From: Erigeron canadensis
Taxonomy: Eukaryota > Streptophyta > Magnoliopsida > Asterales > Asteraceae
Assembly (NCBI RefSeq): GCF_010389155.1
Contig: NC_057766.1
Span: forward strand, 38,573,516 to 38,637,515
Reading direction: 5' to 3'
DNA length: 64,000 bases
Below are positions 9,756 through 61,500 of the stretch, in pieces (the first letter of the stretch is position 1; each line of letters starts with the position of its first letter). The notes under the pieces were generated by a model. The model did no database searches. It was not told where the DNA came from and saw only the letters and a list, made by a program, of their open reading frames with translations. Made by a program: the position numbers and the translations under genes.

Positions 9756-12700
9756 TTAATCATTTATTACAATAGGAGGGCCTGGTGGTACTCTTGGCAT
9801 GTTTGCGTACAACCAATTTTGATACGCATCTTCTTGATTTGCGTACGTTATTGCTAGTCGACGTGCAGGATCGGTTGCGTGAAATTCCCATTCTGGATTC
9901 TTGTAGGCCATTGGGTAGTCGCCTGCTAATTTCACTGCAACAAAATGGGTTTCGTTGTTTATCAGAGCAATACTTATCGGTTGTTTGAATAACAACTGAT
10001 CTAAGCCGTGATGCATCGGAAATACTGTTCGGGGGTCACGTAGGCTAACGCAGTTGACTATTATTGGCCAGGAGGATATAGAACCACACTTTACTCATCC
10101 AATGATGTATGGGCCGGTTGCGTCCATAATAAGATGTTCGCAGCGCCGTCAACATTCGGTTGCCCTCTGTTTGCCCGAACATTTGCATGTACCCTTCGAG
10201 GTCAGATTCAAACTCCGCTAGCATCTGCGTACGAACCCACTCTGCACCCATCTCCTCATCTAGCCCCAAAGCTACAGCTGTAGCTCGAAATCCACAGTTA
10301 CCGTCTCCTTTAACATTTTGTGCGCCTACAACGTACGGCCTTAAGTACGATGGTATCTCACTTAGTACCCAAGCATAATTTTTGGAAAGACTGGCGTTAT
10401 ACGGTTCCGCAACATACCCAACCCAACTCGCCGATGACTGTGCCTCTGACTTCGGATCCGAAACCTGCGCTTGCCTTGATTCATATATGGGTGCATTTCT
10501 AGATTGTGTAGGTGGTGGCCCAAAGATGTCATCTACTAAGTTGGAATATGGTTGGTTATAGTTGAGCCAATGGTCTTGGGACGTATCGCCGAATCCATAT
10601 AATTTTTGTGTCACATATGGTGTATCCCCGACCCCGTAGGATTGGGACGGGTCCCCCTACGTATATATATCATCAAGACCTGGATATGGGTGCAGGTTTC
10701 CGAAAATGTCAGGATTATCTTTGACCCATTTTGATTCAGGGTGGGATTGATCGTCGAACAATTTTCGGTTCTCGGGATAACGACAGGACTGGGACGGCTC
10801 GTACGTACTGTGTTTGGCGGGCTGCGCAGGTGGGAGTTTGTTCAAATCTGGCACCTTGTATTCCCTCGGTCGACTGGACTTGGATTTTCGTAGCCCAGGT
10901 GGGTTGGTGTTGAGATCCGGCACCTAGACCATTAGTAAGAATCAGTTTCCTTAACTGAGGTAGTTATATATACTGTTTTTATTGAATAAGACAAATATTT
11001 TTTTAGATGTATTATGTATACCTTTGGCGGCTTTTGTTTCGAGCCGACTGGTCTTCCGCGTGTGGTCTTTTGAACAAAAGGATCTTTCACTTGTGTCTTA
11101 CCAGGCTTAAACATGTCTTTAATTTTTGACAACCAATGTTTCTTTTGAGCTTTGGGTTGCTGATCCAAGAAATTCGTAAGACCATCAACGACTTTATGGA
11201 CATCGTCTTCTTCGTCTTCGTCTTCTACGCATGTCCACGGTGTTAAGTCAAGCTTTTTCCAAAACGGGTCTATGACATGAGGCTGTATTCGAGTCCCTGC
11301 ATTTTTTTTATATAAATAAGTGTACGAAATTATGTCCTTTTGATGAAAAAATACAAGTAATAAATCGTACTAATTGCGCTGCATGTACTCGGCAATCTCG
11401 TAGGCACATGGTAGCCCGCAACTGGACTGAACCTTGCACCCACATTTGTTAACCTGTCTTTTAAGGACTTTGTCTAAGCGTACAATTTCATCAGCCATGA
11501 TGTCCAAAGCTTTAAGTGAAACCTTTCCCAACAGGTCCTTCATACAGTTGTAATTATGTTTCCCCTTCCGGGTCCCGTTGCTATACCCTAGTTGGCCCCT
11601 TATTTCTGCTTCTTGACTGATCAAGACAGAATCAACACATTGGAGGATTCTAGTAAATGTGCATTTCCCCCTCAATTCTCCCTTCAGTAAATGGTGCTCG
11701 GCCTCCACTCTGTTTGTGGTGTGGTTTTGGTAGTTGAGGTGTTCATCGACCCAACAGGACACAAACTGCTCTCGGTATGGGGACAACCAATTATCGGTCA
11801 GGTACTTGTAGACGCCTGGAAAACCCGCAAGTTTTTCCTTTAACTCCTTCTCATTTGACTTAAACTCGTCAAAAGTCCGAGACTGATAGACTTTTTTCCA
11901 CCAAACGTTAAGCCTGTCAATGTTAACATCTTTCTTCATACGCAATGCCGGTTCGCAGTGCTTGATTATGTTTTGCCATATATGGTACCTACACAGCAGA
12001 TGTTTCGCTTCCGGCATAACAACCTTCAAAGCTCTCATCAGGGCCAGCTCCCTGTCAGTAAGAACGACACGAACGGCAAAGGTATCAGCAAGGGTGGACC
12101 GAAGACATCGTAAAACCCATTGATAATTTGCCTCCCGCTCGTTTACGATAAACGCATACGCTAAACTGAAGGTCTTCCCCGTTGAAGTCACGCCGACGAT
12201 CTCAACTAGCGGCATGTTGTAGATGTTAGTTTTGTACGTGGAGTCTATTTCAATAACCCAGGGAAATGCGCGCCATAGGGTCATTGATGTTGGATGAATG
12301 AAAAATAGGTTTTCCAAGCGTCCATTTTTGTTATTTGTGGTGAACTGGTAAAAGTACCTTTTCTCTTACAACAGTGAAAACATAACCTGCGATTAATGAC
12401 CAAGATAGAGTAAATAAGTCAATTCCAACAACGTAGTACAATAGAATATTTAATGTTTGTACCTGCATTGGAGTACGCCCTGCTTGCCCCAACCTTCTTC
12501 TCGCTTTTAGGAAGTTCGTAATGTCTCCTTTGTGAGTCAAGTTTCCTGGAAATTCAAGTTTGAGGTTTACCAGGATCTGATGTGGGTACAAACCGCGATC
12601 CGATTGGGTCCCCACAAATTCTTTTTCTTCATCCGTCATCCGTCTGGCGTATGCATTCCCTTGCAGATTGGTAGTTGGATCATGATTGTGTCTCCAATCC

Positions 12701-13089
12701 TTGACAGTTAACCTCCAACCACCATCACGCCCAGGGCGGCCTATTAAAGTGAAGGGACAACCTATCTTACTAGACTGTTTGGGTGAGCCAATTAACCTTG
12801 CATCGCGCGCTCCACCATGGTGACATATAAGTGTCACTTTATTCACCACCTCTTTTGAGTTTTTGTTCGTCCGCCGTATAACTAGAACATAACCCAAATC
12901 CATTGTTGTTCTTTGAGCCCACTCCGTTAATTCTTCAAAGGAACCGAACACCTCATCAGTTTCAAAGTCCCCAGCTTCGCATTCATATTCACCGTCTGCA
13001 TCAGGTTGCTCAAACACATTATCCGGCACTTCAATACGTACGTTTTTTGGGTCTGCCCAAATATCCTCCAAACTATCCATGTGAAACAA
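9756..13089 (-). pseudogene. Broken MULE transposase fused to an OTU cysteine-protease domain
   Basis: Exons read on the minus strand: 12463-13089, about 11375-12362, 11022-11296 and 9756-10923; the 98- and 100-bp introns at 10924-11021 and 12363-12462 join in phase. Domain order: FAR1-like DNA-binding region with Cys and His-x-His ligands (IGCPF, HNHD); DDE transposase with IDSTYKT, LTDRE, CRYH and a glutamate in NRVEAEHH; SWIM-like CGC...C; proline-rich linker; OTU domain with GDGNCGF and a later ETHFVAV histidine. Three lesions are visible. There is an in-frame TAG at about 10657-10659. A one-base frame change near 10050-10060 separates the OTU cysteine and histidine halves. The SWIM histidine has become tyrosine (CAY). 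The boundary near 11370 does not join cleanly and may hide another indel. An intact copy would act in the nucleus to move the element; the OTU role is unknown. Confidence 0.8.
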
Positions 13090-13173
13090 TTCAAGTAAAC
13101 ATCAACCTCATTAACTATTAATGGTGTCCATACTCTATATATATATATATATATATATATTTACATCTATACT

Positions 13174-22228: not shown

Positions 22229-25146
22229 TCAAGAATTGGGGATGAAAACACCAATGTAACCAAACCCTGCGATGAAGAAAGCCATAGATTGTAGGAAGAG
22301 GTATATGTAGTAATGGTTCTTCCCAAATGAATAGTCATAGCACCCACACAAGAATAGATAGAGTCCAGCAATGATTTCGAGCATATAAACACTGTCAAGG
22401 TTATAAAACCAATAAATAATTATAATCATTTTCACAATGAGTCATCTGTTGGTTTGTGTTACACAATTGCATGATCATATTTTCATGTTATAGCAAGTAC
22501 TGTAACTAGTGACTAACGAGCCAGGACAAAATGAATTTAACCATTGTTTTTGGCCAATTGGTGATGCCCGTAGTCGCCTACAGAACAACCAATATGGGGC
22601 TTAAGGCTCTTAACCCACAGGCCTGGGCCACACAAAATGTGCCCGATATATGTTAATATTTGTAGTTTAGTCATTTGTGCACATGATAAAATGGGTCGGC
22701 CTAGTAACCAACTTTTGTTTTTAAAGCAGTAAGCCTATTTACTCATATAGTCATGTCCCATTAGATCTCATATTTCATTATTGACCCGTTTGAATGTTGA
22801 AACTAAAAAGAAATTCAATTTACCTTTCTCCTATTTGAATTCGAGGTTTCTTTGTAGCTCTCTGGCCCTGTTTAGGTTTTGAAGCTTCTCCTAGTTTCTT
22901 TGTGACAACCCATTGGTTAACTGTTGTACCCGCCTCAAAAAGGCCAATAAACGTTCCTTTAGTCCGATGTAAAGACATGACATTCTCAAAAAGGATCCAA
23001 AAAACCAGTAGGTGAAAGGACCTTGGAGTCCCAACTGCATTTAGGAGAGAGACGATTGATGGAATATATATGGCACCCCATTTTGGAACTTGTACTTCTG
23101 GCATGAAAACTGTTGTGGGCAATACCACACAGTAGAAGATAAACGTAACAAGATGTGCAACGATTTTTCTAACAAAAAAGAAACTGTATATCACGTAAAA
23201 CTTCTTCAACAATGTCACTTTCTGCATCATAAATGAGGTCAATAAGCATCCTGATTTATGATACCATCCACAATAATACAGTAACCCATTACCCAACATG
23301 TTTAACCCACCCATTTTGTCACCACAAAAGAGATCGTCGAGAATATAACCTTGCTTCTTGCAATTTCCACGACCATCTTCTTAAAAAGGTTAGCTGGTCC
23401 ACATGACCATCGATGTTGTTGATAACGATATGCTTTGAAAGTACTTGGTAACTCATTTTTTACCTTACATATTAAACAGAAAATTGTCACATTGGCGAAT
23501 AAAATCTTGTAAAATTTTAAAGTGACAAGATAATACTGATGAAATTTCCAATGATATATAACTGTCACTGGCTAATATCTGTTATTTTAAATACCTTGAG
23601 ATCACCAACATAAATAAACTTCCATCCTTTGAGGCTTACACGGACAGCTAGGTCCATGTCTTCCACAGTTGTTCGGTCCTTCCATCCCCCAGCCTCATTT
23701 AGAGCTGAAATACGCCAGACACCCGCGGTTCCTACATTCAATACCAATGTCAAATGCATGTCGAAATAGTTTTGGTTTCAGCTATTTTATAATTCAATTA
23801 AATACGGGTTATTGATTAATCTAGTCTTGACTCTTTACCATTGAACCCAAAAAATGCATGTGTTGCAGATCCTGCTTCTTGTTCCACAGTAAAATGGTAA
23901 TCAAGTGACATTTCTTGCATTCTTGTCATTAAACACTCGTCCGAATTCACTGAAATGTACCATCACAAACCATATAGCTTGAGGAGCTTGTCACAAGAAT
24001 ATATTGTCATCAAAATTTGTTCTATTGCAATGCTTCATTAGTATATTATTGAAGAAAAGTTTGCAGATAGCTTGATTACAGTGTAGACAGCTAGCCCGCA
24101 AAGTTTTAACATAAAAGAAGTAAAGATCATTTATTGAAATATACTAATAATAATATAGTTTTTGGCCAAAGTATATATAACAATATAGTTCTGTTGTCAT
24201 GCTAAGAAAAAGTTTTTTCGGGTCAGTGATAGTCAACTTGGAGTCGGAGCACCACATACATTATGAAATGATGAGATGAGATGAGCTGAGCTGAAAAAGA
24301 AAAGAATACCGAATTTCCAACGAGCTTGAACAAGGGCAAGTTCAGGGTTGTGTGCGAGGAATGGGATGGTGCGCCAAAGGAAATCCGGGTCAGGCTGGAA
24401 ATCAGCATCAAATATGGCCACAAACTCACATTGCTTCACATACGAATGTTTCATGCCTTGTTTCAAAGCACCAGCTTTGTATCCATTTCTATTGTCTCTA
24501 ATTTCATACTTTATGTTAATTCCTTTCCCTGCCCATCTCTTGCATTCCAACTCTACTAAATCCTGTCACATTGTCATCAATAAAAACATATGAAACACTA
24601 AAATGATTTGTACTAACTAATTAAGTTGTTGGATTTAATTTCCATGAACTTATTCGATAAATTAGATAACCAAACCTTAATGACCGGGTCAGTTGAATCA
24701 TCAAGAACTTGAATTATGATTCGATCAGACGGCCATGAGAGCCCGCATGCTGCCCCTATAGAAAGTTGATAGACCTTCGTACATACACCCACAAAAATTA
24801 AATGAACATGAACTCAAAATGTAACAAAAAAACATAGGATCAAAGTACATACTTCTTTTTCGTTATACATTGGTATTTGTACTAAAACCATAGGGTAAGC
24901 CGAGTTACCAATCTCCAAATCTTCCTTAATCGCCTCCCATTTGTACCTTTTCTCGAGCTTATATCTCATCAACTTAATGACAACAATTACGATTCCCATA
25001 TAAACACGTTCCACAAATAGCATAACCGACATGGCCAAGCACATTGTCACCATAATTCTCATAAACGGTACAATCAATGGCTCCCTCACTTGCTCCCACA
25101 ATGTGCTCATTAGCCCATGTCCAAAACTCGAGTAAAACCCCTCCAT
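22229..25146 (-). CDS. CSLA: Glucomannan 4-beta-mannosyltransferase (cellulose synthase-like A)
   Basis: Eight exons on the minus strand (24853-25146, 24676-24774, 24310-24562, 23839-23949, 23595-23731, 23350-23463, 22824-23221, 22229-22391) join in frame to about 522 residues, close to the usual CSLA length. It is a Golgi family-2 glycosyltransferase that polymerises mannose and glucose from GDP-sugars into the (gluco)mannan backbone. Visible catalytic motifs are VLDDSTD (D123/D124), FDADF (D183, D185), TVEDMD (D277) and QQHRW (313-317), the D,D,D,QxxRW signature. One membrane segment lies near residues 30-50 and several more fill the C-terminal 200 residues. The ATG starts [11 protein letters not shown]. 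No lesion is visible. Family assignment is firm; the exact CSLA member is not determined. Confidence 0.94.
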
Positions 25147-38358: not shown

Positions 38359-41300
38359 CTAAAAGCATACAAAAGGATATTGAGCAACATTTAACACATC
38401 AGGTCTATCTTCCTGGTTATATGTTAAGCATCCCCGTATAAATTCCTGAAAAAAAATAAAAATAAAAATACAACAGAAAATGCTTGTAATACCCCTGGTG
38501 TGGTGAGTTTAGCTATTACTTTAAGGAACCCATATACTAATAACCAAGTAAGTAAATTGATACCCAAAAGGATTTCCGTGGTTCACGTTTTTGACAAAAA
38601 AAGCTTAACAACAATACTTTATATTTGGCAATAAAGTTTTACATATTTCATTAAACCGACCTCATAATGCATTAGATACCTACTAAGCCTTTTGTATTTA
38701 ATGATTGCAAAAACAGAAAATACAAATATAAGATAATAATATGGGTTGAAGAGCTAACCTTTGCTTCATTTGACACGGAAGGGCTTGAAGGAAATTCAAC
38801 TTTTCGGGCTTTGATTATAGTATCTTCACACAATATTCTATCTTGTGTCTGATCATGCCCGAAAGGATGTCTTCCAAAAAGCATTTGGTACAATATAATA
38901 CCAGTTGACCACACATCAACCTATTATCAAAAGAGAACAGCTGATTGCTTTAACTAAAAGAAAAATGTTGAAAAAAAGTACGCAAAACAATTAAGCTATG
39001 CCTCCCCCCCTTCCCTCCCTTTTCTCTTTGTTTTTGTTTTTTTTTTTTTTTGATTTTTTTGAGATATCACCCATACAAAGGTCTAAAATGGACCATTTTT
39101 CATTTTCATAGACGAGTCAATATCTGTTCAATGGTGACTTAACCAGTATGAATAGAATAAAGTTAAATCGGTACCACTCACCTTCGACGAAATGAGGGGG
39201 ATCTTGTTTAGCTCAAAGCATTCTGGTGGAAGGTACCTGAGCAAGAAAGAAAGAAATCATCAATTGGCTGTCAGCCTGCCAGTATAAAACATCACTATAA
39301 TGTATGCCATAGGTAAAGAACAGTCATCCTCATAGTCAACAAATATTGGTCGAGCAAACAAGATCATAGTCTAAACCCTTTGTTCAAATTGTAATTGTGC
39401 ACTATACAGTCCGGAGTGTCAAAGAAACCATATAACAAAGAGATCTACAAATTCATGCAAAACTGAACTTTATATTGATATATAAGAGAAAATATAAAAT
39501 AGTAATAATCATGACAAGAATATAAAGAAAAAAATTCCCATTAACTTAAAATTTTCCAATTTCATTGCTAAGGAATGACTTTTAAACCGATTATTCGATG
39601 AATGCTCACCAATATGTTCCAGCTCCCTGAGATGTAAGCTTCATGCCTTGAGATCCGACATCATCCTCCATAATCTTGCTAAGACCATGATCAGTAACTT
39701 TTGCAACGCCAAATTCATCAAATAGGACATTCCCAGGTTTCAAATTATAATGAATAATCTGCTGGTTTCTTTTGTTCAAGTAAACAAGCCCTTGAAATAT
39801 TTGAAAAATAATTATCCTAGCTTCTTTTTCTGGTAGCATAGGGGTTGCTTTAAGAACAGCATTGAGATCTTTACCTGTGTATGGACCGAACAATAAGATG
39901 ACAAAAGGAGAATGTAAACAAAACCATATTGTAAAAAATGTTGAAAAAAGCATACCACTGCAATACTCCAAAATTGTGCAAAAGGTATTTTGATCTATCT
40001 CAAAGAAGTCCCATAGACGAACAATGTGATGGTGTATGAAGGTTTTATGGATATTATATTCTTGTATAGCATCATGTATGTAACTTTGCTTCTTATCCTC
40101 ACTCCATTGGGCGTTTAAGCTATGAAGCTTACATGCCACATACCTATACTCCACCAAATTAAACGCCTGATAAAGAAAAAGGTTGCTTCAAATCACTGCA
40201 GATGGGTCAATTTGTACACTTGTAGATATGTCATATGTGCAACAAATGAGACATAAAGCAAGAGGTGACAAATTGGGAGGGTCGGTGATAAGTTGGTTGC
40301 TTTAGTACCCAAAATGATAGATAGTAAGCATGTCAAAACTATATTACTTCCAGTGATAATCTAACTTTGAATAGTATGATTCACGGATGTTATAAGCTTT
40401 CAATAATACAATTATGAAAGTTTTACCTATTTGGTCCATTCAAGATTTAAAAAAAAAACCCAAATTGATCATTCATAAACAAATAGGTCAAAATTGCCAC
40501 CTCTACAAATTTTTAATAGTTGATGGTTTGTTGGAATGTGTTGCAATTTAATGATCGTCCCAGGCAGGCTAAAGAAAATCAAAATTATAAGAAAACAGAA
40601 ACTGACCTTGTACACCTCACTGAATCCACCTTTCCCTAGAAGGTTCAAGAGGGCATATCGATGGTTCAGGATCTGGTAATTATTAAAACGAGAACCATCC
40701 TCATCCCTAATACGTTTCATTTCATATATGAGTGCTCCCTTCTCTAGTTCATATCGATCTCGTTCACGCAAATAGAATTCCTCTTCCTGTTATACAAAAC
40801 AATGAAATGAACACTTCCAAAATTAAAAAACATAGATTATCTGCTAAGCAATAGGGAAGCTTACACGCTTAATGCTGGCTAGACGGGATTCATAGATTTC
40901 ATCCTGGATGATGATATCTTCTTCTGGAGCTCCTGATTCAGCATCACTTCCATCACCCTTATCTTTAAAGACAGATTCAAGGATTTTAAATGTGGTTAGA
41001 GCAAAAAATAATTTTCATAACCGAAATAACAAAAGATTGCCAACTCATAATTATAACAATATCCCACAAAATTCGATATAAGGTATGGGAAAATGTTTAC
41101 CTGGCTGACTTTTCTTTAATGACTTCCGCTGCCTCTCAATATCCTCCTTCAACTCTAGAAAATGCCTCTAGAAAGCAGAAAACGATTGTAATGTGCATGT
41201 CAGCCAGCCGTATGCAAAACTTATGTCCAAACTTCTATCAGCACAAAGGGAGCGAAAACTTTTAAATTATGTATCAAAATAGAGCACACTTGTCGAGCAT

Positions 41301-44246
41301 TAAGATCTTTAATAACTTGCCCATCTTCCCAGGTCTCAGATATGACTGTTCCGGCTCTGTAGGTTGACAAAAAAAGCAGATTATTTGCCAACAAAAGTTC
41401 TAATTTCCATACACTTGTAGCAATGCCGGTTGACTAAACTGCAAAAATATCACCAGATTCTTTACCTAATAACTTTGGCATTGCCAAGTCTCTTTGAATC
41501 ATGCCGAACTTTCATTCTTGCTTCTTTTCGCTCATCTTTAGACACAGATATCAGCAGATCAGATATTACTTTCAGTCTCTGCGATAGAGAAAAGTGTAAT
41601 GACCTCATTAGCAGATTAACGAAATGTATGTTCCTGTGGAAGTGCTAGTTAATAAAAGTAAAAATACAGCATAATGAAAGTAATGACACTCACCTTTGGT
41701 TTCACCTGCAGTTCATTATTTCTTAGCTCCTTAAGTTCCTGTACAAAAGAATAAAAGATAAATAGTGATGCTTAATTGCAGGAAGTGCAGTATGGTTTCC
41801 GAAATTTAACTAAGGAGCTGACAGCAACTACACCTTTTCCAACTGTTGGCATAGATGTTGATATTCCGAGGCCTCTTGGCGTGATTCACGTAAGTCGTGC
41901 TCTAGGGTCGTTACCTTGGCGCGTAGTGATGTGTTTTCCTCCTATATTGTTTAGGATAAAAAATAATTAAATGCGACAATTATAGACGACAGTAAAAAAA
42001 ATGCTACTGCATATTGTATAAATTTAACATATACAACTCATTTATCCAGCAATTTTACAAGGGGCACTACATTTTCCTCTTGATATCCACATTCTCATCC
42101 ATCGGAAATATATATTAGTTTATATTAGAAAATTGTCACATGAATAATAATTGGCTTACTATTTGTCCAAGAGATGATTAATCATCATAGATATCAAAAA
42201 AAAAAGTTATCTATACTTCACCTTAAGTATTTCCTTTTTTACCTTATCATTTAATGTTTATATTATTCATATATTAGTTTACATAATCATTTCCCTTTTT
42301 AAATTTTTATCGATAATAGCAAACACATTTTTTATATACCTATGTATTAGACAATCTGGAGCCGTCGGTCGGCAAAGCCGGCTGCCGGCCACCATCACCT
42401 TTTGATGCATGACTAAATGAAATTTACGAAGTTTATGTACACTACAATTTAATTTTTTTTTTTGGAAAAGTCACCCACCACTGTGCATTGCACGGGTACA
42501 CTTTTTAGAAATACATAAGACATGTCTGGACGAGAGGTAATTAAATAATATTACCTGCAACAAAGCACGTTCATACATTTCAGAAGTTATCTCTTGCACT
42601 TCTTCTTGTTGTTGTTGTAGTGGTTCTTCTCTGAGAATATCATCCTCTGCATATTGTTTAGTCCCATGATCGCAAGAATCCTGTTACACCAAGATTGAAA
42701 AAGCAATATTACATTCTAGAGTACCATTTTATATATATATATATAACCAAAATTTCAAACAACATGAATCAGGTGTATCTTTTTTCAAAAAAATGACCCA
42801 AAGTGATGAAAATGTCATTAAAAACACATAAAATTAAACATCCATATTGAAAAACAAACCTGTTCTTTTTCGGTTGTGTCACGCAAAGATAGTAGAAACT
42901 CTAACAACTTTTCCACATAGTCGTCCTGAAAATACATTCAAAATGACAAATGGTTCAAAATTTTTACCAAAGAATATGATTTGTAGTATATCTGTATGTA
43001 TATGATGGATACATAAAGACTTACCTTGTTGTACTTTGTCTTATAGCTAAGATTGAAAATGTTACAAAACTCAATTAATTCAAGGTTCAAGCAATTTTTC
43101 AGCAACCTTGTCTCTTTTTCATGCTGCAGACATAAATCAACACAAGCTTAGATGAACCGAACCATTTCTCGTTGGTGTATAAACCCTAATGACTAATCAT
43201 ATATATAATAAAGCCCTAATGACTAATCATATATATAATGAGAAACATATTACTAGCAACAAAGAAATGATGCGTCACTGGAAAAATAATTAAACAACGT
43301 TAAATAACTCACTTTATCATCAGCCCAATTAAAACCCGCAAAGTTGCCAATCAACTCTCTTAATTTTTTCTTCTGCAAACATATGCATCACAGTCGTTAT
43401 ATATATATTTGATTCTTTAGATTCAACTATGTACTTCTCACCTTGCCTTCTTTACTAAAGAGAACGATGTGCAGTTTTTTCAGATCTCCATCTCCTGATT
43501 TCACTGAAAATTATAATCATGGTGAGATTTGCATGCCATAAAGGGCATTTTTGAAACACAATACACTTGGGAACTACAAGTTAGAAATGAGTTTTGAATC
43601 GAAGGTGTAATTATAATTTCACATGAAGTGTTTTCTAGATAATTTCACATGAAGTGTTTTCTAGATAATTTTCACTATAACACATCTTATAGTTTTTCAA
43701 GTTTTCCGTGAAAAAAAACTTCTACATCTAAGTGTTGGTGATATATCGGTTAATTTATCGGTCATGGTCAATATCAGTCTATATAGGTGATAGTATTAAT
43801 CAAAAAACTTTGACTTGTTTTTCTGCATTATTTTTTTAGGTGAAAACTTAAAAGGAATGTAAGAATGAGGGCTATCAAGTTATGGCTTATGATTTTATTT
43901 AAAGTTTATTCATGAACTTATGATTTTTTGTGGTTAGGATATCGCAAATATCTAGTTTTTAAAAAATAAATTCCTTTATAACCAATATATCGCACTACGA
44001 CTGATTTACCATTTCTAGGTGGTCGCCTGATATGATACTGTGGACTGATATTTAAATTTTAAAACCTTGATCTAAAAAAGGCCCATAGCAACTTTGACAA
44101 CACTTCTCAATTACAACATCTTTAGAGATTAAAGTAAAAAAAAAAATGAGATAGAAGATCAATAAGTTATGTATATACACAACTACGTCTAAACACAACT
44201 ATGTCAAAGAATCTTTACCATCTAGGATCTCCTTTAGTTGTACCAT
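38359..44246 (-). CDS. DEK-domain / TOUSLED-like kinase chimera with altered active site
   Basis: Eighteen minus-strand exons join in frame: 44219-44246, 43442-43503, 43313-43372, 43025-43123, 42860-42925, 42555-42680, 41834-41941, 41694-41738, 41466-41578, 41290-41356, 41101-41167, 40865-40962, 40607-40786, 39956-40166, 39610-39874, 39182-39236, 38759-38920, 38359-38445. They give about 632 residues. Residues 1-105 match the DEK N-terminal fold ([42 protein letters not shown]). Residues about 150-310 form a charged coiled coil joining TOUSLED-type sequence ([18 protein letters not shown]). The kinase domain starts near residue 357: [12 protein letters not shown] (K386), PPECFEL, DVWS. The catalytic Asp is Asn (HYNLKPGN, N487) and DFG reads DHG. 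TOUSLED kinases phosphorylate chromatin-assembly factors in the nucleus; this product may be a pseudokinase. The ATG at 44246 has a good context (GCCATGG), but the open frame extends upstream of it. Confidence 0.85.
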
Positions 44247-55500: not shown

Positions 55501-58500
55501 ATGTTATATATTAGTTAAGATTTATATGAACATTTGTTTTATTAAGGATTATTATTATTATTATTATTATTGTTGTTGTTGTTGTTGTTGTTGTTGTTAT
55601 TATTATTATTATTATGTACAAGGATAATTATGGTATTTTGTTCCCAATTTCAATAGGAATTGAAATTTTTTAATGTATATTATGAATGTTTTTTTTAATC
55701 AGGATTTGTCATGTACCTGTCTGTTATCGTGTCGTCTTTGTGTTTGGAAAAAAAATGACACGATTTGTTATCGTCTCGTGATCGTGTCCAACCAAACATG
55801 TGTCGTGTCTTATCATGTCATGTAGGATCTGTTATGCCAACTAAAAAAAGGAGGCACATGTTAGATGTTAGAACTTGTTCTTGGTACTAAATATAATGTT
55901 AGATTGCATTTTATTCTTTGTTTTTTAATTTTTATGGGAAATGAGCTGTTTGTTGCAATTTTGTTTCCATGCATTAAGTGCGAGGTCACACATACCAGAC
56001 TATTACCAATTCTAGTTTTGTAAAAGGAGGCTCATGCTAGGTGAGTAGGTGATAGAATTGTTCTTCGTACTAATTATAAGACAACAATTCTGAGCAATCA
56101 TATAAAAATCTTGTTTATGTGCTACCATATTGTTATGGCGATTTCGTGCTTATTATGGATTTTTATACTGAACTTTGCTTTGATTAATCTCAAGTTAATA
56201 TTTATATGCATTATTGCAGTATATACAACCTCATGAACATGGAAAACTGTCACAAGTTGAACTTTTGGTAGTTGATGAAGCTGCAGCTATACCACTACCT
56301 ATTGTGAAGTCTTTACTTGGGCCTTATTTGGTTTTCCTTTCTTCTACTGTTAATGGGTATGCAGTATACATATATATATACACACATAAGGGACAATCAA
56401 ATAAGAACAATCTTGAAATAAGAACATGGTGAGAACACTTAAAAACTACATTTTGATGCGTTAAAAGTCCATAAAAGTAAAATAGTGCATAACTAATTAT
56501 CATTATTTAAGTGTTTAACAACACATTGATCCGTCAAAATCGAAAAAAGCACGTTTTTTGTTGGATGCATTATTTTGATGAATATGCATCCAAGATGGAT
56601 GCACAAAACAAAAAACGTGATTTTTTCGATTTTGACGAATCAATGTATTGTTAAACACTTAATTAATGATAATTAGTTATGCACTATGTTAGTTTTATGG
56701 ACTTTTAATGCATCAAAATGATGCTTTTAAGTGTTCTCACCGTTCTTATTTTAAGAGTGTTCTTACCGGAGTGTTACCCACACACACTCACACACATATA
56801 TATATATATTTATTCATAATCTTGCGAAGTACAACTGATATCTTTCTTGCATTAACTTCCGCTACTGTATATCTTTCTTGAAGCTATGAAGGTACAGGGA
56901 GATCCTTATCTTTAAAACTGCTGCAGCAATTAGAAGAGCAGAGTCGAGCCTCTACCAAAGGCTCAGATGTGGTTCCTTCTGGTATGATATGCCTTTAGTT
57001 ACGATTAAAAATTTCAGCATATATTTTGTGGATGATTATGTTTTTATCTTAATTAGTCTCAATACTTCAAATGGTTAATTGCTTCAATGCAGGACGTCTT
57101 TTCAGAAAGATAGATTTGACTGAAGCTATAAGATATGCGTCTGGTGATCCTGTTGAATCATGGCTTAACAATTTGCTTTGTTTGGACATAGCAAATTCAA
57201 TTCCTAGCATCAACAGGTTGGAACAATTGCTAACATTGCTAAAACACTGTATGGGTTGACTTTATAAACTATCTCCTTGGGCTCATAAGTTCTTTATGCA
57301 AATAGGTTACCTCCTCCCAGTGAGTGTGATCTGTATTATGTTAACCGGGATACACTCTTCTCATATCATAAAGACAGCGAGTTATTTCTGCAGGTAGTTG
57401 TGGGTCAATTTGATTATCTATAATCTTCTATACTCTATGATACATTATAAAGATTTTACACTCTTGATTAAATACTTAATTACAAGATGGGAAATTACAA
57501 ACTTACCCTTAAACTTTAAATTTATTAATAGTTTAAATTCTTAATATCTATAATTAACTCATATAGTTACCAACTTATTTTGTTTAATTTATGTTTTATA
57601 ATTCAATCATGAAATTAACATAAATATATGTTCTATAAAAGTAAATGGAATTTATGATATTTAAAATACACATAATATATTATTAATTATTTGAATCTTA
57701 ACTTTCCTTCATGAAATCAACAAACTATCAAGTTGTGTTATCTTTCGCATTATTAAATTACATCCAACAACCACCATCAGAAAACTTTGGCCCCATCAAT
57801 TGAAAAAACTTACTCCAGCTGCATTGCTCGGGCACTATGCCAGTGTTTTTGATTCATTTATGTTGGTATTTACATATTCTCATACTCCTCAGAGAATGAT
57901 GGCTTTATACGTTGCTTCTCACTACAAAAATTCTCCAAATGATCTTCAATTACTGGCTGATGCTCCAGCTCATCACCTTTTTGTGTTACTTGGTAAGCTT
58001 TTTTTCTTTCTATTGCTATTTTTATTTTCTCTATTCCGATCCTATTTTTTTATACTGTATATTTTAGGAAAGGTTAACTACATATCTAGGGAATATAGGG
58101 AGTCTTTTGTTAGAGTATATTTTGATATCTGTTAGCGATATCCTACACATATTTCTAAGAACTTGTATGTGCAGGTCCGGTCAATGAGTCGAAGAATCAG
58201 CTACCGGATATTCTTTGTGTCATCCAGGTTTGCTCTATTTTTTTGTGTCAGTGTTTTTTCTAGCAAATGGTGGCAATTTTGACTCATTTGGGTGGATTTT
58301 TGAATATTTAATTGGCCATTACAGGTCAAAACGGGTAAACGCCAAGAAATAACTTATAAGTGAAGGGTTCTATACTAAAAATCTTTTAAAAGTCTTTTGT
58401 ATTGCATAACACCATCTGAATAACATTATTAAAAGAACTAACTTATATGAATAATGACTTTTTTAAATTCAGTTTTGGTACAATAGTTATATATCTAAAA

Positions 58501-61500
58501 GTTTCAAGTACTTGGATAACAAGTGTTTAGGGTGAACTCAATGCTACGTACCAAATGTTACCCATGTGACCCATCGCCTACACTGTTCAGTGTTGCACCT
58601 CAACTTCTAGGATCTAGCCTTTCTATTAAAGTCCCTAGCTTTGATTTGTTTAGCAAGTGGCAATACTTGTAGTCTGATATCTAAACGATTGTTTGTTAAT
58701 TGTTGTAAAGGTCTGTCTTGAAGGAAAAATATCTAAGGCTTCTGCCATGAGAAGTTTAAGTGCTGGCCATCAGCCTCACGGAGACCAAATTCCATGGAAA
58801 TTTTGTGAACAGTTTCGAGATAAAGACTTCCCAAGTCTGTCTGGTGCTAGAATTGTGCGTATTGCAACACATCCAAATGCAATGAAGGTGACTCACCATC
58901 TTTATATATGCATTTCCAGTTATATACAGCATTCTTTATTGAGTTATTCTTATGTATCAATTATTTTAGGTATTTCTCAACTTACTTATTTGTGCATCTA
59001 TTCTACCTATGCATATTACATAAACAAATGTGATCTTATTATATTGCAGCTTGGATATGGTTCGGCTGCCATTGAATTGCTGTCAAGGTACTACTATATG
59101 ATGATTTTTGCATTTTTTTTTTTTAAATGATTCAAATGTACATGTTAGAACAGAAATATGCATGCTTGTTCTGTATCAGAGCATGAAGTGCACTTATCTA
59201 AGACAGCTGCTAATGAAAATATAATGCTGTAGGTACTTTGAGGGCCAATTCACTCTCATCTCTGAAGAAGATGTCAAGAATGATCCAAAATCTACACATC
59301 TCAAAATTACTGAAGCGGCTGAGGAAGTATAAGACCACCTTAGTAATTAGCTTATTTACATTTACTGTTTTCTGTATTTCTGACAAACTATTCCTGTATT
59401 GACACAGGTTTCATTGCGTGAAGAAAATATAAAGCCCCGGTCAGACCTTCCTCCTCTACTTGTACATCTTCGTGAAAGACGGCCCGAGAAGCTTCATTAT
59501 CTGGGTGTCTCGTTTGGGCTTACTTTGGACCTATTTCGCTTCTGGAGAAAACAAAATTTTGCTCCATTTTACATATGTGAAATTCCAGTTAAGTCTTTTC
59601 TGTTACTCAATCTTCATGTACTTTTTTTTACCCCTATCTTCTAATTTAAGGCTCAATCCTGACTATGGTAGTGTCATTAATCTGTCTTTAGAATTCTGTT
59701 ACCGGTGAGCATACATGTATGATGTTGAAACCATTAGACAACGATGAAATTGAAGTTAACGGATCAGATAAATTGGGATTTTTCGGTCCTTTCTATCGAG
59801 GTTTACATTTTTTTCAAGCAAAGGTGTTCTGAAGCTTGTTAATCCAGAGCAATTGAAGTTGACACCTTTTTTTTTTTGTATTACCGTAGCTTTTAGGTCA
59901 GCCTTTGCTAGGCTTTTGTGTACACCAACATTCAATACAATGGAATATAAGCTTGCAATGAGGTATGCATTTTGGTGTCCCAGCTTTTCAAACAAAGTTT
60001 TGATACTCTTATGTATTGGGCTACTTTTTTGTTTTGTAGTATCTTGGATCCAAAACTCAGCTTTGCAGATGTTGATCCTTCATCAACTCTTTCACATAGT
60101 ATGTATGATGATATCATTAAGTCTCCAATCAGTATGAATAGATTAGAAGCTTATGTCACCAACCTGGTTGATTATCACCTGGTATGAAGCATTTTGAATC
60201 AAAATTAGATGTTATATAGCTTTTACTACTTGTTCACAATTAAATGTTCTTGCTATTCAGATTTCAGATCTTAAACTGCCACTTGCATACCTCTACTTCC
60301 ATGAGAAGCTTCCAGTTACATTATCATATGCCCAAGCCTCTGTGTTACTATGCATGGGCTTGCAGAACCAAGATGTTTCTTATGCTGAGGTTTGTTCAAC
60401 TTTGTAATTAACTACTTTCTCTTAGCTGAACACCAAGTAATTCTCTCTATCTTTTTGTATCAACTATTCAATATTTTACAGGGAATGATGAAGTTGGAAA
60501 GACAACAAATATTATCATTCTACATGAAAGTCATGAAAAAGTTCCACAAGTATTTGGATTCAGTAACATCTAAACAGTTTACAGATACGTTGCCCCCTGT
60601 CAAAGAAGTATGTCACAAGTTTTATACAGACTGTTTTAGTGTTTTTGGTGTTTCATGTTTCTTCAACTTTTGACATTAATTAATTATTATGAAAGGAATT
60701 AAGCAAATGGGAAGCCATATATCTAATTTGTTAGCAGCCGGGAGTAATTTTTTTTTGTATGTATAGTATATAGTATTTAGTTATTTCCATTTCCTTTTAG
60801 GTTGAGTTGAAGCCACACTCGGTTTCAGTGGATGAGGATCTTGATGAAGCTGCAAAGGAAGTCAAGGTATGTTTTGTTCGGAATATCTCATTAAATGATT
60901 CTATAGGTTATGGTAAAACGGTGGGTCAAGCTGGTTGATGTCAGGTCAACATGGGTTTGTTTCAAAATGGGTAATATCTTGGTGCATGTTGGGTAAGCTG
61001 TGTTCAAATAAAGCACTTCATGTCAAAATCAATTTTTAAATTTTTTTAATTAAATTTTCTAGGATGTTTTATACATGAAAAAGTCCACTCTGATTAATTT
61101 CAATCCCTTTGACCTGATTCATTTTATGTTATATATATATATATATATATATGGGGGATGGGAATATAAGGCGGTATGCCGGACACAACCTTATATTCCC
61201 TTTTCCCTATATATATATATATATATATATATGGGGGAAGTGAATATGGGGTTGTCCCCCATCTAAGTTTAGATGGGGAACCCCTCACATTTTGGTTTTT
61301 CTATACTACTATATAAAAATTATAACCCCCATGTTGAAAGTTTACAAAAATAGGACATGCGAATTGACCAAAATACCCATAATGAATTAAATCATCATCA
61401 ACCCTTAATATTAAATTACCCCATTAGTCCATTATATTACCATAAAACATCTCTACAAACCTCGCATTTTGGTTTTTTAATCATAAAATTCATGGGGGCC

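Follow-up and report, generated by a model that had tools for sequence, protein, structure and literature searches.

In the genome of horseweed, Erigeron canadensis (426 Mb), we find a DEK-type domain joined in one open reading frame to the coiled coil and kinase domain of a TOUSLED-like kinase (TLK). The frame lies on the minus strand of the 64,000-nucleotide stretch C6:38573516-38637515 (the window, to which all short coordinates refer), between positions 44246 and 38359. It is composed of 18 exons separated by introns that all have GT-AG borders (17/17), and its 632 codons run from an ATG at 44246 to a TAG ending at 38359 without an intervening stop. A first-pass annotation of the window had described a DEK domain and a TOUSLED C-terminus in a single frame with matching splice phases, and as an open reading frame in the DNA this arrangement is confirmed. 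We tentatively interpret it, with slightly less than even confidence, as a recently formed single chimeric gene whose predicted product would be a chromatin-tethered, kinase-dead partner of TOUSLED.

Origin of the DEK part

When residues 1-105 were compared with the PDB using phmmer (E <= 10), three distinct sequences were matched and all three were DEK. The best match was human DEK (2jx3, E = 1.2e-5, residues 13-96), and the other two had E-values of 2.3e-4. A profile of 120 plant DEK domains gave 55.5 bits for the N-terminus of the fusion, as compared with 10.8 bits for the best of 200 shuffled sequences; the plant proteins had been fetched with a plant DEK consensus, which yielded 408 proteins, and the 120 were taken from among the matches listed. 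Thus the DEK assignment of the first-pass annotation stands on the human protein and on the plant profile, whereas the search with a library profile ('DEK_N') that it had proposed did not succeed, neither Pfam nor NCBIfam matching DEK in the N-terminus. No DEK_C domain (PF08766) was found in a Pfam scan of the whole 632-amino acid (aa) protein at E <= 10.

The domain is encoded by the first five exons. Exon 1 (44219..44246, minus strand, as all exons below) contains the start codon and the residues MVQLKEILD-, which align with LKDIPN of plant DEKs, and it ends in a phase-1 donor as in the DEK genes. Exon 2 (43442..43503), exon 3 (43313..43372; IGNFAGFNW), exon 4 (43025..43123) and exon 5 (42860..42925; KLLEFL ... 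EKEQ) encode the rest, the domain ending in exon 5. Three DEK genes of the genome, at C5:32.88, C8:0.57 and C2:43.40 Mb, were compared with these exons, a tandem DEK-like locus at C8:0.557 Mb being left aside. The intron positions and phases of exons 1-5 agreed with those of the DEK genes at five of five junctions for C5 and C8 and at all four junctions visible in C2. Exon 3 has the same length (60 nt) in all three genes, exon 4 is 12 nt shorter than in the C2 gene, and the donor of exon 5 is common to the three. The C2 gene was nearest in amino acid sequence (43/94 identical residues; C8, 37/96; C5, 33/96) and its DNA likeness to the fusion spans introns too, continuing for instance from exon 2 into intron 2. 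The common intron positions and the intron-level likeness indicate that the DEK part was copied from a DEK gene at the DNA level, and of the three the gene at C2:43.40 Mb is the closest relative of the copy that supplied exons 1-5. Two loci on C6 (24.58 and 18.17 Mb; E about 1.2-1.4) were rejected as DEK relatives because their surroundings are without DEK sequence, and the ten matches of the human DEK stretch to the genome (best E 0.8) were also taken as chance.

Origin of the TOUSLED part and the border in exon 6

The remainder of the protein matched human TLK2 in the PDB (5o0y) with an E-value of 9.9e-122, the next PDB match being at 8.7e-31, and the Pfam Pkinase domain at 5.2e-55; plant TOUSLED proteins were matched as well. 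By sequence, the fusion protein therefore contains a TLK-type kinase domain. In a tree of 52 rows it grouped with TOUSLED of the same species (P0003) with a support of 0.954, on a branch of 0.125 as compared with 0.007. In the coiled-coil region (residues 148-237), a putative dimerization segment, 76 of 90 residues are identical to P0003. The coiled-coil part is encoded by exons 7-9 (41941-41834, 41738-41694, 41578-41466), as delimited by the frame and the DNA match to the TOUSLED gene; the middle part by exons 10-12 (41356-41290, 41167-41101, 40962-40865), delimited by the frame and comparison with the TOUSLED parent; and the kinase domain, located by the Pfam and PDB matches, by exons 13-15 (40786-40607, 40166-39956, 39874-39610) and 16-18 (39236-39182, 38920-38759, 38445-38359).

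The DNA match to the TOUSLED gene of the genome (C5:42.58 Mb) starts at about 42574, within exon 6, includes most introns and extends to 38364 at the stop codon. Exon 6 (42555..42680) is chimeric, since its last ~20 nt can be aligned to the final part of a TOUSLED exon, the alignment continuing into the intron after it, and its first ~100 nt matched neither parent in the DNA comparisons. The border thus lies inside exon 6 and not between exons 6 and 7, where the first-pass annotation had placed it. Its statement that the N-terminus of TOUSLED is unlike that of the fusion holds: residues 1-147 and P0003 align at chance level (26/121), the TOUSLED N-terminal region (MSEDVLLHF...) is absent, and comparison with the TOUSLED gene gave no DNA match upstream of 42574. 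Taken together, these alignments show that the sequence from the last part of exon 6 up to and including exon 18 derives from the TOUSLED gene at C5:42.58 Mb, by a DNA-level copy that starts at the end of one of its exons and runs up to the stop codon.

Loss of catalytic residues

Two catalytic positions are altered in the fusion. The catalytic-loop Asp is replaced by Asn at position 487 (IIHYN; codon AAT, 39744..39746, minus strand), where the parent, a second copy of the fusion (see below) and a TOUSLED pseudogene on C5 have GAT, and the DFG Phe is replaced by His at position 506 (DHG; codon CAT, 39687..39689, minus strand), where the parent has TTT and the second copy TAT. Asp and Phe occupy these positions in 118 of 118 aligned TOUSLED homologues; in this alignment the public protein P0001 is the fusion gene itself, and P0002, which was left out, nevertheless has both residues. 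The glycine loop, the VACK Lys (386) and the DFG Asp (505) are retained. Among 334 near-invariant columns 34 are changed in the fusion, as compared with three in the parent and at most six in any other sequence. Having lost the HRD-type Asp, the domain falls by its motifs among the pseudokinases, a class whose members lack one or more of the VAIK Lys, HRD Asp and DFG Asp. Kinases without the catalytic Asp are normally incapable of phosphotransfer. In work on human TLK2, the DFG Phe (F614) is reported to belong to the R-spine, and the D613A substitution to yield a dead kinase (PMC6023931). The kinase domain of the fusion is thus probably catalytically dead. On its motifs, an active kinase was rejected; the first-pass annotation had suggested that a fusion could target kinase-like regulation to DEK sites on chromatin.

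A second copy and the age of the fusion

A second copy is located some 150 kb from the first and on its strand (C6:38760000-38769900). It repeats the order of DEK exons, exon 6 and TOUSLED exons but is broken: no match to exons 9-12 was seen in it, and its exons 2, 5 and 14 have gaps of odd length. Val512 and Glu522, which are V and E in 118/118 homologues, are M and K in both fusion copies, derived changes common to the two. The simplest account of these data is a single fusion event with a later duplication to the second locus, where the gene has since decayed. A broken copy with the same order of parts also makes misassembly unlikely. In the TOUSLED pseudogene on C5 (21973000-21982900) there are in-frame stops, and DEK exons were not detected. 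All copy counts are lower bounds.

The introns of the fusion and of its TOUSLED parent differ by 0.17 per site. Substitution rates in plants are 5-10 per 10^9 years, from which the TOUSLED-derived copy would be, very roughly, 9-17 million years old. As far as seen, the chimeric gene is young and lineage-specific, occurring in a single genome where one copy is intact and the other broken.

In the second copy, about 2.4 kb of additional sequence separates DEK exon 3/4 from exon 5. A CT-rich stretch with a repeated motif is located upstream of exon 1 of the intact copy (44760-44640, minus strand); it is possibly a 5' untranslated exon, and its part 44759-44706 is partly common to the second copy.

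Constraint on the reading frame

Exons 7-18 are 91.9% identical to the TOUSLED parent with one indel, as compared with 84.7% identity and 33 indels for introns of similar total length. A neutral branch was simulated with intron divergence as the neutral rate. Under these conditions 82 amino acid changes (95% range 67-98) and 5.2 stops were expected in the TOUSLED part; the observed numbers were 49 and 0 (P = 0.005 for the stops). The pairwise dN/dS was 0.27, a value to which the constrained parent contributes half of the path. By these measures constraint on the TOUSLED-derived frame is relaxed but real. For the DEK exons, the three complete ones differ in length from those of the C2 gene by 0, 12 and 15 nt, and exon 6 differs between the fusion copies by 27 nt, all multiples of three; selection on the DEK exons is more weakly indicated than on the TOUSLED part.

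The public gene model

The best protein match, the 529-aa 'TOUSLED-like' protein P0001 of E. canadensis, consists of MD followed by residue 106 to the end of the fusion. A search of 21 kb upstream on the minus strand for ATGGA[TC] followed by G[TC] returned a single site, at 42845, and P0001 must therefore start at the ATGGAT at 42840..42845 (minus strand) and use the donor 42840/42839. This donor lies 20 nt beyond the 42860 donor, and splicing there would break the frame of the DEK exons. With an approximate donor matrix it scored -4.09, as compared with 5.39 for the 42860 donor. The latter is common to the DEK genes and the second copy, whereas neither the second copy nor the C2 DEK gene has the 42840 donor; the fused frame is therefore ancestral. 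The fusion was not present in assembled read data; since P0003, the true TOUSLED of the species, was likewise absent there, this result is uninformative.

Occurrence elsewhere and related systems

When residues 1-106 were compared with 90 candidates of suitable length, nothing matched at E <= 1. None of the 120 listed of 1230 TOUSLED-like matches shows a DEK part, and none of the 120 listed of 408 DEK matches has a kinase domain (Pfam column) or a kinase motif. Apart from the fusion gene, the catalytic residues are unaltered, as far as readable, in the 120 listed TOUSLED matches. P0002 (Ilex, 633 aa) was considered as the same fusion and rejected; its sequence starts within the coiled coil, and a part of TOUSLED is repeated in it. 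Among openly licensed papers pairing tousled with DEK, the titles listed revealed no fusion, which does not prove novelty in print. The first-pass annotation knew of no described plant family with the DEK-TOUSLED order, and no other such protein was indeed present in the matches listed, but what was found is confined to one genome and does not amount to a plant family.

The coiled coil and kinase of the fusion are homologous throughout to those of TOUSLED/TLK proteins (P0003; human TLK2), and exons 7-18 and most introns are collinear with the parent; the differences are the DEK domain at the N-terminus, the lost catalytic Asp and DFG Phe and the altered last residues before the stop. With plant DEK proteins (Arabidopsis DEK3/DEK4 and DEKL1/DEKL2; the C2, C5 and C8 genes) it shares the DEK (SAP-like) domain and its intron positions, but in the Pfam scan it is without DEK_C, and the acidic/basic stretches upstream are missing. 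Pseudokinases with Asn in place of the catalytic Asp are known, HER3 and the like. As in these, the ATP-site Lys and the DFG Asp are kept, and a partner rather than an enzyme would be expected; unlike them the fusion also has DHG, and the Asp to Asn change is found in none of the 118 aligned TLK homologues. In human cancers DEK is likewise joined to unrelated partners (DEK-NUP214, DEK-AFF2; PMC7441080), but those fusions are somatic and belong to tumours, whereas the plant fusion is in the germline and involves a TLK.

Interpretation

If the frame is expressed as a single chimeric gene, splicing at the ancestral DEK donor at 42860 would yield the 632-aa protein. The DEK domain would substitute for the lost TOUSLED N-terminus and anchor the coiled coil and the dead kinase on chromatin, where the coiled coil could pair with active TOUSLED and dampen or relocate its activity; alternatively, ASF1-histone partners might be held without being phosphorylated. 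Several published observations are relevant to these steps. The N-terminus of human TLK2 is reported to carry a predicted nuclear localization signal, and its deletion to free activity; the coiled coil is needed for dimerization, coiled coil 1 being required to pair with TLK1, and heterodimers of dead and active kinase are under-phosphorylated, 17 phosphosites of the active homodimer being missing (PMC6023931). A kinase-dead form of TLK1B was described as still stimulating chromatin assembly (PMC2845150), and the inactive form of fly Tlk as having an effect of its own (PMC6374402). Arabidopsis DEKs are presented as chromatin proteins affecting H3K27me3 (PMC12712427), and a human phosphoproteome network names DEK S307 as a candidate substrate common to TLK1 and TLK2 (PMC13299901).

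A number of observations weigh against this interpretation. The chimeric protein is predicted from DNA sequence, its partnering with TOUSLED or ASF1 is putative, and chromatin binding is assumed for a DEK domain that is highly divergent: it has ~40% identity to plant DEKs, as compared with a median of 72% for pairs of plant DEKs, and retains 25 of 59 near-invariant plant DEK positions. Relative to the C2 parent the DEK exons have a dN/dS of 0.77 and have changed at an intron-like pace (65% identity, introns 68%), and their lack of stops (0 vs 2.3 expected, P = 0.10) is weakly informative. The public model omits the DEK exons; it may reflect real transcripts and is a hint toward transcripts starting between the two parts. 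Outside this genome no relatives with the fusion were found. Finally, between the fusion copies the DEK-part introns are 74% identical and the TOUSLED-part introns 84%, a difference not expected from a single fusion with one later duplication; this discrepancy (window 43503-42860 against the second copy) may be due to gene conversion, to alignment trouble in short AT-rich introns or to older DEK copies.

Part of this evidence would fit translation of the TOUSLED-derived part only, with the DEK exons serving as 5' untranslated sequence or as an upstream reading frame and a diffusible, kinase-dead 529-aa TOUSLED without N-terminus as the product. We consider this possible but rather unlikely. 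P0001 is exactly such a protein, an annotation program would hardly have chosen the 42840 donor without evidence, and the pace of the DEK exons agrees with it as well. That donor is, however, poor by its score and missing from both the second copy and the parental DEK gene, and the length differences of the DEK exons and of exon 6 keep the frame, in which no stop arose. Another explanation, a chimeric pseudogene in early decay, recent, functionless and open by luck, would account for the broken sister copy, the C5 TOUSLED copy with stops, the missing catalytic residues, the many changed near-invariant columns and the dN/dS of the DEK exons; we regard it as unlikely, because the TOUSLED part has fewer stops and amino acid changes than neutrality predicts, exons have a single indel against 33 in introns, and every intron has kept its GT-AG borders. 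Very improbable is the existence of two separately transcribed neighbours, a DEK gene and a TOUSLED copy that are both truncated. Although the two parts have different parents and the public model starts between them, the DEK part is without a terminal stop, exon 5 ends at a conserved donor with exon 6 following in frame, and the TOUSLED part starts within exon 6 without a TOUSLED promoter region, an arrangement repeated in the second copy.

The chimeric gene that we tentatively favour agrees with the first-pass annotation in the single frame, the matching phases, the replaced N-terminus and the lack of other such proteins, but differs from it with respect to kinase activity and the site of the border; the probable loss of catalysis and the start of P0001 had been overlooked. 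It appears doubtful, though conceivable, that this is the first tethered TLK pseudokinase, in which DEK has replaced the regulatory N-terminus and catalysis is switched off, acting as a locus-bound dominant-negative or scaffolding regulator of TOUSLED/ASF1 and hinting, as a fusion of two cooperating proteins, that DEK and TLKs are functionally connected in ordinary plants. Should the protein be made, it would represent a natural experiment: a non-catalytic TLK carrying a chromatin-binding domain foreign to it, with the parents, the sister copy and the intermediate changes all available in one genome. It would then offer a plant system for the non-catalytic TLK functions that animal work suggested (PMC2845150, PMC6374402), and would suggest that DEK and TOUSLED have common sites of action. 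Should it not be made as a fusion, the locus would be an example of a public gene model hiding, or rightly excluding, a fused domain.

Other features of the window

Pieces of a Mutator-like (MULE/FAR1) transposase were detected at 10048-13101 on the minus strand (PF10551, E = 1.5e-26; FAR1, 7e-4). Part of a glycosyltransferase family 2 gene, which we assume is perhaps cellulose-synthase-like, lies at 24236-24565 on the minus strand (PF00535, E = 3.6e-8), and on the plus strand 57695-59127 contains exons of a GNAT_acetyltr_2 protein (PF13718), presumably the RNA cytidine acetyltransferase NAT10/KRE33.

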